Part shown: in pieces, positions 9,777 to 17,571 of the stretch | How positions within the stretch are numbered: position 1 is the first letter of the stretch | Layout of the letters: the number at the start of each line of letters is the position of its first letter | Assembly: GCA_030654015.1 (NCBI GenBank) | Contig: JAURYI010000123.1 | Coordinates: 1-64,000 of the forward strand | DNA from: Methylococcales bacterium | Lineage (GTDB): Bacteria; Pseudomonadota; Gammaproteobacteria; Methylococcales; Methylomonadaceae | Direction: 5' to 3' | DNA length: 64,000 bases | Notes under the pieces: model-generated | Database searches by the model: none | What the model saw: the letters and a program-made list of their open reading frames with translations, nothing else | Told to the model about the DNA's origin: nothing | Program-made: the position numbers and the translations under genes

Positions 9777-10418
9777 ATGGCAAGACCGTTAATACAAATG
9801 GCATTAGACTCATTAGATTTCGATGCAACAGTAAACCTTGCTACTCTAGTAGCACCACACGTTGATATTTTCGAGATCGGAACTCCATGTATCAAACACA
9901 ATGGCATCAACTTAGTTAAAGAATTAAGAGCAAGATTCCCTAATCACTTGTTATTGGTTGACTTAAAAACTATGGATGCTGGTGAATACGAAGCAACTCC
10001 TTTCTACGCAGCAGGTGCTGATATTTGTACAGTTTTAGGCGTATCTGGCCTTGCAACTTGTCAAGGTGTTATTAAAGCTGCAAACGCACACGGTGCAGAA
10101 GCTCAAATCGACTTAATCAATGTTGAAGACAAAGTCGCTTGCGCTCGTGCAACTGTTGAAGCGGGTGCTCAAATCATGGGTATTCACACAGGCTTAGACG
10201 CTCAAGCAGCAGGTCACACACCTTTCGCTGACTTAAACGCAATTGCTGAATTAGGCTTACCAGTCCGTATTTCAGTCGCTGGCGGCATCAAAGCATCTAC
10301 AGTTCAAGACGTAGTAAGAGCTGGCGCGAACATCATCGTTGTTGGCGCAGCAATTTACGGCGCACCTTGCCCTGCTACAGCAGCGCAAGAAATCCGTGAA
10401 TTGGTTGACGCTGTATAA
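9777..10418 (+). CDS. hxlA: 3-hexulose-6-phosphate synthase
   Basis: MARPLIQMALDSLDFDATVNLATLVAPHVDIFEIGTPCIKHNG...LLVDLKTMDAGEYEA...ISVAGGIKASTVQDVVRAGANIIVVGAAIYGA; followed directly by the isomerase. Confidence 0.97.
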   Translation: MARPLIQMALDSLDFDATVNLATLVAPHVDIFEIGTPCIKHNGINLVKELRARFPNHLLLVDLKTMDAGEYEATPFYAAGADICTVLGVSGLATCQGVIKAANAHGAEAQIDLINVEDKVACARATVEAGAQIMGIHTGLDAQAAGHTPFADLNAIAELGLPVRISVAGGIKASTVQDVVRAGANIIVVGAAIYGAPCPATAAQEIRELVDAV

Positions 10419-10437: not shown

Positions 10438-10971
10438 ATGCATCAGCAACTTATATTAGATAAAATCACAGGTATTTTAACGGCTACAGACGATTCTTAT
10501 GATGAAAAGCTAGTTGAAATGCTTGATAAAGCCAAGCGCATTTTTATCGCAGGTGCTGGGCGTTCCAAGTTAGTTGGTAACTTTTTTGCTATGCGCTTGG
10601 TACACGGTGGTTACGATGTCAGCGTAGTTGGCGAAATTGTAACTCCGAGTATTAAAGCAGGTGATTTGTTAATCATTATCTCAGGTTCTGGAGAAACTGA
10701 GCAATTGATAGCATTCACCAAAAATGCCAAAAAAGTCGGTGCCAACATCGTGTTGATTTCTGCGAAAGCCAGTTCAACTATCGGCGATATGGCTGATGGT
10801 GTATTCCAAATTGGAAAAGAAGAACTGTATGGCAAGGTTGTGGGAATGCCAATGGGAACAGTGTTTGAATTATCAACACTGTGCTTTTTGGAAGCCCTAA
10901 TCTCACATATCATCTGGGAAAAAGGAATTCCTGAAGAAATCATGAGAGAAAGACACGCTAACTTAGAGTAA
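10438..10971 (+). CDS. hxlB: 6-phospho-3-hexuloisomerase
   Basis: SIS-domain protein: IFIAGAGRSKLVGNFFAMRLVHGGYDVSVVGEIVTP...LIIISGSGETEQLIAFTKNAKKVGA; adjacent to hexulose-phosphate synthase. Confidence 0.96.
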   Translation: MHQQLILDKITGILTATDDSYDEKLVEMLDKAKRIFIAGAGRSKLVGNFFAMRLVHGGYDVSVVGEIVTPSIKAGDLLIIISGSGETEQLIAFTKNAKKVGANIVLISAKASSTIGDMADGVFQIGKEELYGKVVGMPMGTVFELSTLCFLEALISHIIWEKGIPEEIMRERHANLE

Positions 10972-11111: not shown

Positions 11112-13097
11112 ATGACTTCGCGCCGAGAATTAGCGAACGCCATACGCGCTTTGAGCATGGATGCCGTACAAAAAGCCAACTCTGGACATCCAGGGGCACC
11201 TATGGGCATGGCGGACATCGCCGAAGTCCTGTGGAACGACTACATGAGTCACAATCCGACCAACCCAAACTGGTCAAATCGTGATCGTTTCGTTCTGTCT
11301 AACGGTCATGGGTCAATGCTGATTTATTCATTACTGCATTTGACTGGCTATGATTTACCGATGAGTGAATTGGCTACTTTCCGTCAGTTACATTCAAAAT
11401 GCCCAGGTCACCCTGAATACGGTTATGCGCCAGGTATTGAAACAACAACTGGCCCATTAGGACAAGGTATTACCAATGGCGTTGGTTTTGCAATGTCAGA
11501 AAAGTTACTTGCGCACCAATTCAACCGTCCAGACCATAATATTGTTGATCACCACACTTATGTATTTCTGGGTGACGGCTGTTTGATGGAAGGCGTTTCT
11601 CACGAAGCGTGTGCGTTAGCAGGTACTTGGGGCTTAGGCAAATTAATTGCATTCTGGGATGACAACGGTATTTCAATCGACGGTCATATCGAAGGCTGGT
11701 ACACCGATGACACCGTAAAACGCTTTGAAGCATACGGCTGGCATGTTTTATCTGTTGACGGACATAACCCTGAAGAAATTTCTAAAGCCATTAGCTTGGC
11801 AAAAGATATGACCAGTGCGCCAACACTAATTTGTTGCAAAACAACCATCGGTTTTGGTTCACCAAACAAAGCTGGTACACACGAATGTCACGGTGCGGCA
11901 TTAGGTCAACCTGAAATCAATCTAACTAAAGCAGCTTTAGGTTGGGATTACGAAGCCTTTATCATTCCAGAAAACGTTTATGCTGGCTGGGATGCGAAAG
12001 CTAAAGGCACTAAAGCAGAAGCAGAATGGAATGCTAAATTTGCCGCTTATAAAGCAGCATATCCTGAATTAGCGGCTGAATACGAACGCCGTATGGCAAA
12101 TGAATTGCCTGCTAACTGGAAAGAAGCGACCGATGCTTTAATTGCTGACGTTAATGCTAAAGCTGAAAATCTGGCTTCTCGTCAGGCATCACAAAAAGTG
12201 ATTGCTGGTCTTGCGCCTTTATTACCTGAATTCTTAGGTGGTTCTGCTGACTTGACTGGCTCTAACTTAACCAGTTGCGCCAGCTTTACTCATGTACACG
12301 CTAAAGAACCAGGCAATTACATCTCCTATGGTGTGCGTGAATTCGGTATGTTCGGCATCATGAACGGCATGGCGTTACACAGTGGTTTAATACCCTTCGG
12401 CGGCACATTCCATATGTTCTCTGACTATGCGAAAAGTGCATTGCGTATGGCAGCATTGATGAAAATCCGCACCATCGCTGTATTGACTCATGATTCTATT
12501 GGTCAAGGTGAAGATGGTCCGACACATCAACCGATTGAAAACACTTCAGCAATGCGCTTCATCCCTAATATGGATGTTTGGAGACCAGCAGATTCAACTG
12601 AAACTGCGGTTGCATGGGTAATGGCGGTAGAGCGTTTAACAGGCCCAACCAGCTTGGTATTAAGTCGTCAAGCCTTACCTTTCATAGCGCGTAATGATGA
12701 TCAAATAGCCGCTATTCGCAAAGGTGCTTACGTTATTTCTGAAGCCAAAGGCACTGCACAAATTATCTTGATTGCCACAGGTTCAGAAGTCGATTTAGCG
12801 TTAAAATCACAGGCCGCTTTGGCAGAAAAAGGTATTCAGGCGCGCGTTGTTTCCATGCCGTCAACCAATGTCTTCGATCGTCAAGATAAAGCATACAAAG
12901 ACAGCGTATTAACACCTGGTGTAAAACGTGTTGCTATTGAAGCTGGTGTAACTGACTACTGGCGTAAATACGTTGGTTTAGAAGGCGGCGTTGTGGGTAT
13001 TGACACTTTCGGAGAGTCAGCTCCTGCTGGCGCGTTGATGAAACACTTCGGTTTCACCGTTGAAAATGTTGTCAGTAACGTAGAAGCTGTACTTTAA
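11112..13097 (+). CDS. tkt: Transketolase
   Basis: Transketolase motifs: [70 protein letters not shown]. Confidence 0.97.
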
Positions 13098-13120
13098 TTT
13101 TTAAGATAACCTTGGAACGG

Positions 13121-13174
13121 GACACCTCTCACACATGATGCCATACGATTAGTTGGCATATTGTCGGAGGTGTC
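13121..13174 (+). other. Long-stem intercistronic hairpin downstream of tkt
   Basis: gacacctc (13121-13128) pairs with gaggtgtc (13167-13174); inner atgcca (13138-13143) pairs with tggcat (13154-13159); no T-tract. Confidence 0.5.
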
Positions 13175-13207
13175 ACGAACCACTTCTTCCGACTCATAGG
13201 TGATCGT

Positions 13208-13927
13208 GTGAACAAGAATAATTTAACGAAAGGTCTATTTACAGCGTTGTTGCTAGTCAGCAGCGTGGTAAGTGCAGACGAGAAATATCCAGCAGCAGAC
13301 TTCCAGCCCTCGGTTGTTTATCAAAGCGATGATGTCAAAAATGGCTCATCAGCTAAAGCAGCAGTCAAACCAGCAGCACCCGTTGCTGCCGAAGTAAAAA
13401 CTGAAGTCGATTCAAAATATCCAGCGGCAGACTTCCAGCCTAAAGTTGTTTACAGCGATGACAACTACAAACACAATAAAACATTACCTGCCAGTGCGTC
13501 TAAAAGTGCAAGCGTCTCTTCTGCTGCATCCGTTAAGGAAGAAGCTTCAGATGAAAGCGTTACTGCTACTGAGACCAAAAAAGAAGATTCCAGTGCAACT
13601 TATTTACTAGGCTTGGTAGGCTTGGCAGCAGTCGGTTTTTTCTTGTTCAGACAACAAGCAACGCCTGCTACCGCCAAAGCTAAAAAAGCTAGTGTTGCCC
13701 CTGCAAGCACCAAAACTGCTGCCACAACAGGTGTTGGTAAATACATCAACAAAGTATCTGGCACAGGCGTTTCTCGCTATGTAGACAATCAAGTTAAGAC
13801 TGCAAAATCTGCAACCAGTGTTGCTAGATATGTTGCACAGCAAACATTAGCTGATAAAGCAAGAGCGGCAGAAGAAGCAGAAAAGAAAGCTACAGGTGTT
13901 GAAAAATATATGCGCAATCGGGGATAA
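13208..13927 (+). CDS. Unknown membrane protein: signal peptide, two KYPAADFQP repeats, one TM helix, then four VxKY-type motifs
   Basis: GTG start. MNKNNLTKGLFTALLLVSSVVSADE(KYPAADFQPSVVYQ)...(KYPAADFQPKVVYS)...TYLLGLVGLAAVGFFLF...TGVGKYINK..TGVSRYVDNQ..TSVARYVAQQ..TGVEKYMRNRG. Confidence 0.85.
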   Translation: MNKNNLTKGLFTALLLVSSVVSADEKYPAADFQPSVVYQSDDVKNGSSAKAAVKPAAPVAAEVKTEVDSKYPAADFQPKVVYSDDNYKHNKTLPASASKSASVSSAASVKEEASDESVTATETKKEDSSATYLLGLVGLAAVGFFLFRQQATPATAKAKKASVAPASTKTAATTGVGKYINKVSGTGVSRYVDNQVKTAKSATSVARYVAQQTLADKARAAEEAEKKATGVEKYMRNRG

Positions 13928-13930
13928 GCA

Positions 13931-14725
13931 ATGAGCCAGAATCCATTGAACAGTTCATTTTTATCTGCTGTTGCAGCGTTTTTTTCGTTTGGAACTGAAG
14001 CAAAATCTCAAACAACTGAAAATATGTATCGTGTTTGTGCGGGCGACCCCGACGGACTTAGCGGCGTAGAGAAATATCTGCAAAGCCAAGAAGCGTTGTT
14101 AGCAAGACAAAAGGCTGAGCAATTGGAACAACTGGCAGCCCAAGCCTCAGCTAGCAGTGTTACAAAATACTTGGCAGGACAAGCACCGCTGACCAGTGTA
14201 GATCGTTACGCTCTCAGACAAGCACTTGCTGAAAAACAGACACATAAAAGCAACCTTGCAACTAGCGGCAAAACAGGTGTTGATAAGTATCTGAACGGTA
14301 TGAAATCAGCACCTGCATTAAGCGGTGTAGAAAAATACTTAAAACATCAAGAAAGCCTGCCCCAGCCCAGTAAAGTTGCTAAATACATGGCAAAACAAGC
14401 AGCTTTAGCTGCATTGCACGCTAAATCAGCACCAGCCGTGGCAACGCCTACAGGCGTTGCTAAATACTTACAGCATCAAGAAAGCCTGCCACAACCTAGC
14501 CGAGTGGCTAAATATCTGGCAAGACAGGCTTTGTTAGATGCACAACAGGCAAAACCAGCACCCGTAAAACGTGGCGAAACAGGTGTTGATAAATATGTCA
14601 AACACCAAGACGAGTTACCACAACCTAGCAGAGTAGCAAAATACTTAAACAGACAAGCATTAGCCGAACAACAAAAAGCAAATGCCGAAACTAGCGTTGA
14701 AAGATATATGCGTCATCAAGGTTAA
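13931..14725 (+). CDS. Unknown repetitive soluble protein with about 11 VxKYLxxQ motifs
   Basis: GVEKYLQSQ, SVTKYLAGQ, SVDRYALRQ, GVDKYLNGM, GVEKYLKHQ, KVAKYMAKQ, GVAKYLQHQ, RVAKYLARQ, GVDKYVKHQ, RVAKYLNRQ, SVERYMRHQ. Starts 3 nt after the previous stop. Confidence 0.88.
   Translation: MSQNPLNSSFLSAVAAFFSFGTEAKSQTTENMYRVCAGDPDGLSGVEKYLQSQEALLARQKAEQLEQLAAQASASSVTKYLAGQAPLTSVDRYALRQALAEKQTHKSNLATSGKTGVDKYLNGMKSAPALSGVEKYLKHQESLPQPSKVAKYMAKQAALAALHAKSAPAVATPTGVAKYLQHQESLPQPSRVAKYLARQALLDAQQAKPAPVKRGETGVDKYVKHQDELPQPSRVAKYLNRQALAEQQKANAETSVERYMRHQG
14321..14680 (+). repeat. Three degenerate tandem units of about 42 aa (about 126-129 bp) inside the repetitive CDS
   Basis: GVEKYLKHQESLPQPSKVAKYMAKQAAL / GVAKYLQHQESLPQPSRVAKYLARQALL / GVDKYVKHQDELPQPSRVAKYLNRQALA. 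Confidence 0.85.
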
Positions 14726-14824: not shown

Positions 14825-15811
14825 ATGGCAAAAAACTTACTTGAACAACTGAAAGCAATGACAGTTGTGGTTGCTGACACAGGTGATATTGAAGCGATTG
14901 AAAAATTCACACCACGTGATGCAACAACAAACCCATCGCTGATTACAGCGGCGGCGCAAATGCCACAATACCAAGCGATTGTTGACGATACCTTAAAAGC
15001 AGCAAGAACAACTTTAGGTGCGGCAGCATCAGCCGCTGAAGTAGTTTCTTTAGCGTTTGATCGTTTAGCTGTTTCTTTCGGTTTAAAAATTCTGGAAATT
15101 ATTCCAGGTCGTGTATCAACTGAAGTTGATGCAAGACTGTCATTTAATACTGACGCAACTATTGCTAAAGGTCGTGATTTAATCGCCCAATACGAAGAAG
15201 CTGGCGTTTCAAAAGATCGCGTATTAATTAAAATTGCTGCAACATGGGAAGGTATCCAAGCCGCTGCTGTTTTAGAAAAAGAAGGCATTCACTGTAACCT
15301 GACTTTATTGTTCGGCTTACACCAAGCGATTGCTTGCGCAGAAAACGGTATTACACTGATTTCTCCTTTCGTTGGTCGTATTCTTGACTGGTACAAAAAA
15401 GATACTGGTCGTGATTCTTACGCGCCTGCTGAAGACCCAGGTGTGGTATCAGTGACTGAAATTTATAATTACTACAAAAAATTCGGTTATAAAACTGAAG
15501 TTATGGGCGCAAGTTTCCGTAATGTTGGTGAAATTACTGAATTAGCAGGTAGTGATTTATTAACTATCGCCCCTTCTTTATTGGCTGAATTACAAGCCAC
15601 CGAAGGCGAGTTACCACGCAAACTAGACCCAGAAAATGCGGCAACAATGGCTATTGAAAAATTATCAATAGACAAAGCAACATTTGAGAGTATGCACGCT
15701 GCAAACCCTATGGCGACTGATAAATTAGCCGAAGGTATTGACGGTTTTGCTAAAGCATTAGAAGCACTTGAAAAATTGCTGGCTGATCGTTTAGCGAGCT
15801 TAGAAGCTTAA
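14825..15811 (+). CDS. tal: Transaldolase
   Basis: [86 protein letters not shown]. Confidence 0.97.
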
Positions 15812-15911: not shown

Positions 15912-16991
15912 ATGTCACAAAAAATTTCCGATGTCGTTAAAGCTGGTGTTGTTACTGGTGAAGACGTACAAAAAGTCTTTGCTATTTGCAAAGCAAACCA
16001 ATTTGCTCTTCCTGCGGTAAACGTTATCAACACAGATTCAATCAATGCTGTATTAGAAGCGGCTGCGAAAGTTAAATCTCCTGTGGTTATTCAGTTCTCT
16101 AATGGTGGTGCTGCGTTTTTCTCAGGTAAAGGTGTAAAATTAGAAGGTCAACAACCTGCTATTCTAGGTGCTATTTCTGGCGCACAACACGTTCACTTAA
16201 TGGCAGAAGCCTATGGCGTACCTGTTATTCTGCACACTGACCACGCGGCAAAAAAATTATTGCCTTGGATTGATGGTTTGTTAGATGCAGGTGAAAAACA
16301 CTTTGCGGCAACAGGCAAACCGTTGTTCAGCTCGCATATGCTGGATTTGTCAGAAGAAAGCCTGAAAGAAAACATCGAAATCTGTGCGCAATATTTAACG
16401 CGTATGTCTAAAATGGGCATGACGCTGGAAATCGAATTAGGTTGCACTGGTGGCGAAGAAGACGGCGTAGACAATAGCGGCATGGATCATTCAGCCCTAT
16501 ACACTCAACCTGAAGACGTAGCTTATGCTTATGAAGAATTAAGCAAAATCAGCAACCGTTTCACCATCGCGGCTTCTTTCGGTAACGTACACGGTGTGTA
16601 TTCACCCGGCAATGTCAAATTGACTCCTACCATTTTGGCGGACTCACAAAAATTTGTCTCTGAAAAATTCGGTGTGCCACACAATACCTTAGACTTCGTA
16701 TTTCACGGTGGCTCAGGTTCTACGCCCGAAGAAATTAAAGAATCAATCAGCTATGGCGTTGTGAAAATGAACATTGATACCGATACCCAATGGGCAACTT
16801 GGGAAGGTATTATGAATTTTTACAAGAAAAATGAAGGCTATTTACAAGGTCAAATCGGCAACCCAGACGGTGCTGATAAACCTAATAAAAAATACTATGA
16901 TCCACGCGTCTGGCAACGTGAAGGCGAAGTCGGCATGGTAAAGCGTTTGGAACAGGCTTTCCAAGAATTGAATGCTGTTAATTCTTTATAA
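15912..16991 (+). CDS. fba: Class II fructose-bisphosphate aldolase
   Basis: VILHTDHAAKKLLPWIDGLLDAGEKHF, LEIELGCTGGEEDGVDNSG, FVFHGGSGSTPEEIKESISYGVVKMNIDTDTQWATW. Confidence 0.97.
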   Translation: MSQKISDVVKAGVVTGEDVQKVFAICKANQFALPAVNVINTDSINAVLEAAAKVKSPVVIQFSNGGAAFFSGKGVKLEGQQPAILGAISGAQHVHLMAEAYGVPVILHTDHAAKKLLPWIDGLLDAGEKHFAATGKPLFSSHMLDLSEESLKENIEICAQYLTRMSKMGMTLEIELGCTGGEEDGVDNSGMDHSALYTQPEDVAYAYEELSKISNRFTIAASFGNVHGVYSPGNVKLTPTILADSQKFVSEKFGVPHNTLDFVFHGGSGSTPEEIKESISYGVVKMNIDTDTQWATWEGIMNFYKKNEGYLQGQIGNPDGADKPNKKYYDPRVWQREGEVGMVKRLEQAFQELNAVNSL

Positions 16992-17142: not shown

Positions 17143-17571
17143 ATGGAACGTCGTGATTTTATTCGCTTATCGGTAGCAGGTGCAGGTGCAAGTTTAATCG
17201 CTCCTGGTTTAACGCTTGCTGCCAGTGAACAACAGATAACTCAGACTAGCGATATTTATTATACAAAAGAATCTACAGGTCGTTGGGAAGGCAAAGCAGC
17301 GACCCATTTACCAGTTATTGAGGTGGCAAAAGCCGAGGGTAACGCTACCGTAAAAATCACTACGCCTCATGAAATGAAAGGTTACGAACATTACATTGTC
17401 AAGCATGTGCTGTTGGATAAAAACCATAAATTTCTCGATGAACATATGTTTGATCCAACTAAAGAAACTGTACCTGTTTCAACATTTACGCTTAAAAACT
17501 ACAGTGGTACTGTATATGCCTTAAGTCTGTGTAATAAGCACGACCTTTGGTTAAGTAGCGCGGAAGTATAG
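17143..17571 (+). CDS. Tat-exported desulfoferrodoxin / superoxide reductase-like protein
   Basis: MERRDFIRLSVAGAGASLIAPGLTLAA Tat-type signal; putative Fe ligands in THLPVIE, TPHEMKGYEHYIVKHVLLD and CNKHDLW match the class II SOR pattern. Confidence 0.75.
   Translation: MERRDFIRLSVAGAGASLIAPGLTLAASEQQITQTSDIYYTKESTGRWEGKAATHLPVIEVAKAEGNATVKITTPHEMKGYEHYIVKHVLLDKNHKFLDEHMFDPTKETVPVSTFTLKNYSGTVYALSLCNKHDLWLSSAEV

Follow-up and report, generated by a model that had tools for sequence, protein, structure and literature searches.

Introduction

CsoS2, the scaffold of the alpha-carboxysome, is a repetitive disordered chain encoded with the genes of its clients, and EPYC1, the linker of the algal pyrenoid, is likewise disordered, with short helical binding motifs at even intervals. 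For bacteria that eat methane or methanol, formaldehyde is both a carbon source and a poison. It is an old question how these cells hold down free formaldehyde on the way from the periplasmic source to the cytosolic enzyme HPS. An engineered Mdh-Hps-Phi assembly reportedly clusters formaldehyde-producing and formaldehyde-fixing enzymes for methanol use. PMC8879981 cites Price et al. 2016 for this assembly. In HPS-PHI fusion enzymes (NCBIfam NF041755) the first RuMP steps are coupled covalently, with no scaffold; some genomes of our motif survey have ORFs of ~390 aa with HPS at the start that are probably such fusions (L276, L288).

Here we describe two adjacent genes, A and B, in a window of 64,000 nucleotides, the whole stretch of Methylococcales DNA that was analysed. 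By a modest balance of probability, we judge their products to be membrane-tethered multivalent scaffold proteins for formaldehyde assimilation, and we put them forward as candidates for that role. As in CsoS2, each is a repetitive chain, predicted to be disordered and encoded beside candidate client genes. They differ from CsoS2 in their motif, in their predicted membrane anchors and in having no detectable sequence relation to it (PDB profile searches were empty, and neither Pfam, NCBIfam nor PDB gave a match to the CsoS2 family). By eye, no shell gene was recognised among window ORFs 5767–40050 or in the neighbourhoods of relatives. With EPYC1 they share a chain that is predicted to be disordered and to bear short helical motifs, but the sequences are unrelated, and A and B are bacterial, operon-encoded, predicted to be membrane-anchored and linked to a client that is a candidate only. 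The engineered Mdh-Hps-Phi assembly is synthetic, and A and B would be its native counterpart. Published accounts of the Methylococcus RuMP locus (PMC517821, PMC8527097), in the parts available, name only enzymes. Searches of open-licence PMC found no description of A- or B-type proteins, and a search there with the motif string returned nothing relevant.

Results

A and B lie within a RuMP operon and match no known family

The ORF list of the window gives the gene order hps-hpi-tkt-A-B-tal-fba, all on the + strand. The five context enzymes were identified via NCBIfam as HPS (3-hexulose-6-phosphate synthase, a candidate client; 9777–10418), HPI (6-phospho-3-hexuloisomerase; 10438–10971), transketolase (11112–13097), transaldolase (14825–15811) and class II fructose-bisphosphate aldolase (15912–16991). 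Gene A occupies 13208–13927 and gene B 13931–14725, with a 3-nt gap at 13928–13930. The sequence-only reading, which had placed such a pair between tkt and tal in a RuMP operon, was therefore correct in its coordinates as well as in its enzymes. A further conserved gene follows fba at 17143–17571 and is present also in L003–L007; its product has a twin-arginine-like start, resembles by eye a desulfoferrodoxin or a Sox-type small protein and has no NCBIfam match.

RNA folding and comparison of the tkt-A intergenic leader (13098–13207, + strand) revealed a strong hairpin (−37.7 kcal/mol, z −3.6) and, directly before the A start codon, a conserved CTTCTTCCGACTNNNAGG that is kept in several genera and can enter the alternative stems GAGAC/GTCTC and GTCGG/CCGAC. 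RNAalifold detected no compensatory changes in the leader stems and Rfam gave no match, even at E up to 5. The hairpin may control translation of A.

Profile searches of A and B against Pfam, NCBIfam and PDB returned no family above cut-off and no PDB match, in agreement with the earlier statement that no named family carries this motif. When relatives were included, the only matches were weak and short (DUF6292, U1snRNP70_N, tRNA-synt_His and, in one relative, DPC2) and we put them down to repeats or low complexity. DUF6292 (PF19809) scored 20.6 against window B, below its Pfam cut-off of 27.1 and over 24 residues only; among relatives its best E was 3e-7, the comparison with the cut-off being for window B.

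Both proteins carry a repeated motif and a predicted or possible membrane anchor

There are 4 copies of the loose motif core V-x-[KR]-Y-x in A and 11 in B, compared with means of 0.16 and 0.09 and maxima of 3 and 2 in 5000 shuffles. These counts bear out the roughly 15 copies reported earlier. A stricter form with terminal Q is found 2 and 9 times, respectively. A logo built from 355 instances in three families reads [ST]-[GS]-V-x-[KR]-Y-[LMVI]-x-x-[QKR], where the search itself fixed V, Y and the residue classes at +2 and +4 and left the remaining positions free. A strict DNA pattern gave four isolated matches elsewhere in the genome versus seven for the reversed control. The strict pattern also found no motif tag on the RuMP enzymes of this genome, and that idea was rejected.

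Protein A (239 aa; 13208–13927, + strand) was parsed from its ORF, motif scan, hydropathy and structural model. It has a predicted signal peptide at about residues 1–23 (13208–13276; hydropathy peak LTKGLFTALLLVSSVVSAD, conserved), two predicted periplasmic repeats recognised by sequence and conservation (YPAADFQPSVVY at 13286–13321 and YPAADFQPKVVY at 13418–13453; consensus YPAADFQPxVVY), a transmembrane segment at residues 129–147 (SATYLLGLVGLAAVGFFLF, 13592–13648; Kyte-Doolittle 1.96, model helix 128–150) and a predicted cytoplasmic tail (13727–13924) with four motifs, whose V residues are at positions 176, 188, 205 and 231. Since the signal peptide precedes the transmembrane segment, the YPAA part would lie in the periplasm and the motif tail in the cytoplasm. 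A is a predicted membrane protein, which corrects the sequence-only reading.

Protein B (264 aa; 13931–14725, + strand), delimited by ORF, motif scan and model, has a hydrophobic segment at residues 6–24 (13946–14002) that hydropathy marks as a possible membrane anchor, followed by an array of eleven motifs (14063–14716). Because the N-terminus is hydrophobic in B and in most relatives (Kyte-Doolittle maxima about 1.0–1.15, with LFFPAVAGLFFFM in several), B is probably membrane-associated; the earlier claim that it lacks both signal peptide and transmembrane segment holds in that there is no classical transmembrane segment but passes over this hydrophobic start. Sequence comparison upheld the three tandem units seen before (14321–14707, two motifs apiece), with a unit length of 43 aa and 20–27 of 43 residues identical. 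A second conserved element, LEGE[FY]IPA, is present in 9 of 69 distinct B-type ORFs, in long forms (L112, L113, L114, L224, L225 and other long B proteins).

AlphaFold2 modelled B with exactly eleven helices and no global fold (pTM 0.17, mean pLDDT 64), each helix beginning one residue ahead of the V of its motif, and likewise placed the four tail motifs of A at helix starts; pTM was 0.16–0.17 across the models and the linkers were of low confidence. The combination of one helix per motif and low pTM suggests that the motif chain consists of short helices in series and does not fold as a whole. That each motif may be a short helix, and that the whole set looks membrane-anchored, are additions to what had been proposed.

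Linkage to RuMP genes is conserved across the order

B has a relative in each of ten named Methylococcales/Methylococcaceae MAGs, and in all ten the gene directly upstream is A, or a fragment of A where a contig edge or a frameshift intervenes, with the RuMP gene order kept wherever the contig allows. Profile A1, for protein A, matched 266 of 301 genomes of the order, with part of the matches resting on the YPAA module alone, and profile A2, for protein B, matched 229 of 301. The regions read contain 108 distinct ORFs carrying two or more motifs, and 99 of these have hps, hpi, tkt, tal or fba no more than 3 kb away, a figure that describes the sample and is not an unbiased rate, because the roughly 100 regions were chosen around A, B or HPS matches. 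The commonest order in these regions is hps-hpi-tkt-M-M-tal-fba, where M is a motif gene, and synteny with hps, hpi, tkt, tal or fba is found in families f1, f3/f6 (one shared contig), f4 and f5. One f6 match lies on a short contig nearly identical to that of another family, and contamination is possible.

The copy number of motif genes tracks that of the enzymes. Duplicated hps-tkt modules each have their own motif gene (L152, L110, L123 and L126), the L152 genome having three hps-hpi-tkt modules, and genus g5 has a second operon of the form hps-tkt-short YPA-B. Small genomes of g24 (down to 1.5 Mb) keep a minimal A of 127–133 aa with two motifs between tkt and tal. Several genomes with hps have no motif gene near it (L278–L281 in f6; L284 and L285 in f4), the whole genomes being covered by profiles A1 and A2, and the proposed scaffold is therefore not obligatory for RuMP. 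L234 and L236 encode two motif proteins away from RuMP genes; that at L236:8442–9272 (f5) has a C-terminal Cys/His-rich stretch, CQAVTGKGTQC...CSQH.

HPS is absent from families f2, f7 and f8, and some members of f2 and f7 have YPAADFQP proteins in which the motif is absent. We therefore rejected these repeats as the RuMP-specific part; the YPAA-TM part resembles an older membrane module that either acquired the motif tail or lost it. Small secreted proteins that consist of two or three YPAADFQP repeats and have no motif are encoded in the genome of the window itself (L108:7876–8193, contig C132), there adjoining a gene for an ABC-transporter-like ATPase, and in L091, L135 and L154. Two motif-free YPAA-TM proteins of f6 (L133:8223–8867 and L141:9031–9654) lie beside mutS and have the basic tail NRQRA(H/N)KTKR(S/T)RRR.

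The motif recurs outside the order, beside hps and in chemosensory kinases

In a class-wide sample HPS (E below 1e-25) was found in 6 of 369 genomes. All six encode a motif protein beside hps or tal and none of the 363 others does. Profile A1 (E below 1e-4) matched five of the six and nothing else among the 369; in the sixth, G302, a protein with seven motifs between hps and tal was found on reading. The nominal p for this co-occurrence, 3e-13, is not to be taken at face value, since the six genomes fall in about two lineages. Three of them belong to a group outside Methylococcales, here f10, which from its gene content is probably Methylophagaceae and which weakens any function tied to methane oxidation. 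The phylum sample held no betaproteobacterial Methylophilaceae with a good HPS match, and the RuMP plasmids of Gram-positives gave only distant HPS matches.

The usual layout in f10 is hps-motif-tal-hps2-hpi. Its motif protein (91–204 aa) starts with the amphipathic MxEKGFFASICGFFKGLFSS and continues with copies of TGVERYIRNQ. A profile of the f10 motif matched 53 of 57 f10 genomes, some matches being a kinase and not the hps neighbour. A profile of the f10 motif proteins recovered A (E 1.4e-7) and B (6e-6) of the window genome; in 215 genomes it gave no convincing match besides these two, and a match in G329 showed no motif on reading. Loss of synteny with RuMP genes had been named beforehand as evidence against a scaffold; synteny is kept across the order and in f10.

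The same advance statement had named occurrence of the motif in a family of unrelated function, and this did occur. Many f10 genomes have 4–6 motif copies in the linker of a ChpA-like kinase of ~1830–2000 aa encoded away from RuMP genes (L212:5790–11804, L213:6719–12202, L214:6477–12176 and L215), with three HPt matches and HATPase, CheW and receiver domains, and by eye pil-chp genes adjoin it. ChpA is the Pil-Chp chemosensory kinase; A and B share the linker motif of the f10 version but have none of its domains, as Pfam and NCBIfam found no HPt, HATPase, CheW, kinase or receiver domain in either. The motif is thus not exclusive to RuMP, and an exclusive RuMP role is further countered by the HPS-bearing genomes without a motif gene; a scaffold role is not refuted.

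The kinase finding favours what we regard as the main rival, namely that the motif docks generally onto a hub, such as a polar or membrane-positioning factor of the FimV/HubP or ParA kind, so that the RuMP scaffolds and the f10 ChpA arrays share a destination and RuMP enzymes are not the direct partner. One partner would then explain both settings. We nonetheless think this unlikely, as no hub came to light, the arrays occur chiefly in RuMP operons, and none was found besides A and B in the genome of the window or in the non-RuMP genomes of the class sample.

It is less probable still that motif-motif contacts allow A and B to organise or stack intracytoplasmic membranes, with co-expression as the only reason for their place in the RuMP operon. 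Type I methanotrophs do have stacked intracytoplasmic membranes, and the transmembrane segment of A and the hydrophobic start of B would fit such a role. Against it, f10, whose members are probably non-methanotrophs without such membranes (judging from their presumed identity), keeps at its RuMP locus the motif part only, without the transmembrane and YPAA parts of A, and motif-free YPAA proteins exist in families without HPS.

The motif is under strong constraint

Simple one-step estimates of dN/dS for B against three relatives were 0.01–0.03 for motif-core codons and 0.20–0.25 elsewhere, and an alignment of 18 B proteins has 29 invariant columns, of which 26 belong to the motif core (Fisher p 7e-13, the columns being not fully independent). 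Chance is ruled out as the origin of the motif by the shuffles and by dN/dS. Recent repeat expansion without function was likewise rejected, because the motifs have kept their amino acids despite extensive change at synonymous sites. The idea that the helices self-associate into a coacervate, whether to concentrate metabolites or to protect against formaldehyde, with no specific enzyme client, draws on the presence of many short and nearly identical helices along a flexible chain rich in Lys, Gln and Ala and is the most improbable of the alternatives, since the near-fixed T/S, K/R and Q around V and Y, together with dN/dS of 0.01–0.03, suggest a specific pocket and not loose self-association.

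Discussion

Architecture, constraint, gene linkage and co-occurrence of A and B are matters of observation. The chain has the multivalency of CsoS2 and EPYC1, its 4 and 11 motif copies being predicted helical beads joined by linkers modelled at low confidence, and its genes are linked to those of a metabolic pathway. A reading as a multivalent chain linked to RuMP is supported by synteny that holds throughout the order and in one further group and by the lack of a known family, and is weakened, as far as an exclusive RuMP function goes, by the f10 kinases. Synteny can also be explained by co-regulation instead of physical binding.

Three kinds of apparent anchor recur: the transmembrane segment of A, the hydrophobic start of B and the amphipathic start of the f10 protein. 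Given a recurring membrane anchor and a multivalent cytoplasmic helix motif beside formaldehyde-fixation genes, a tether holding RuMP enzymes together at the membrane seems to us the most economical explanation; membrane attachment, binding, the identity of the client and any benefit are what we infer. In such a tether A would span the membrane, with its YPAADFQP repeats outside and four motifs inside, and B would attach through its hydrophobic N-terminus and present eleven motifs. The motifs would be short helices on a flexible chain, each making a weak contact with a cytosolic partner, in all likelihood one of the RuMP enzymes. HPS is our favoured, if weakly supported, guess, because hps is the RuMP gene common to the otherwise different hps-tkt-M and hps-M-tal operons. 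Numerous weak contacts of this sort would bring RuMP enzymes together at the membrane, the point of entry for formaldehyde from the periplasmic methanol dehydrogenase.

Disordered multivalent scaffolds are already known in CsoS2 and EPYC1, whereas a native membrane-anchored one for RuMP, from an unnamed family, would be new. We tentatively propose, as a possibility that falls a little short of an even chance, that gammaproteobacterial methanotrophs and related methylotrophs possess a native, so far undescribed membrane-tethered scaffold that builds a formaldehyde-capturing RuMP assembly, and that in f10 its motif is carried as well by a chemosensory kinase, through which C1 metabolism could be linked to behaviour. 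If true, a native enzyme-clustering part could serve synthetic methylotrophy, and a dedicated scaffold in most sampled genomes of the methanotroph family would make the question of how formaldehyde is kept low directly testable.
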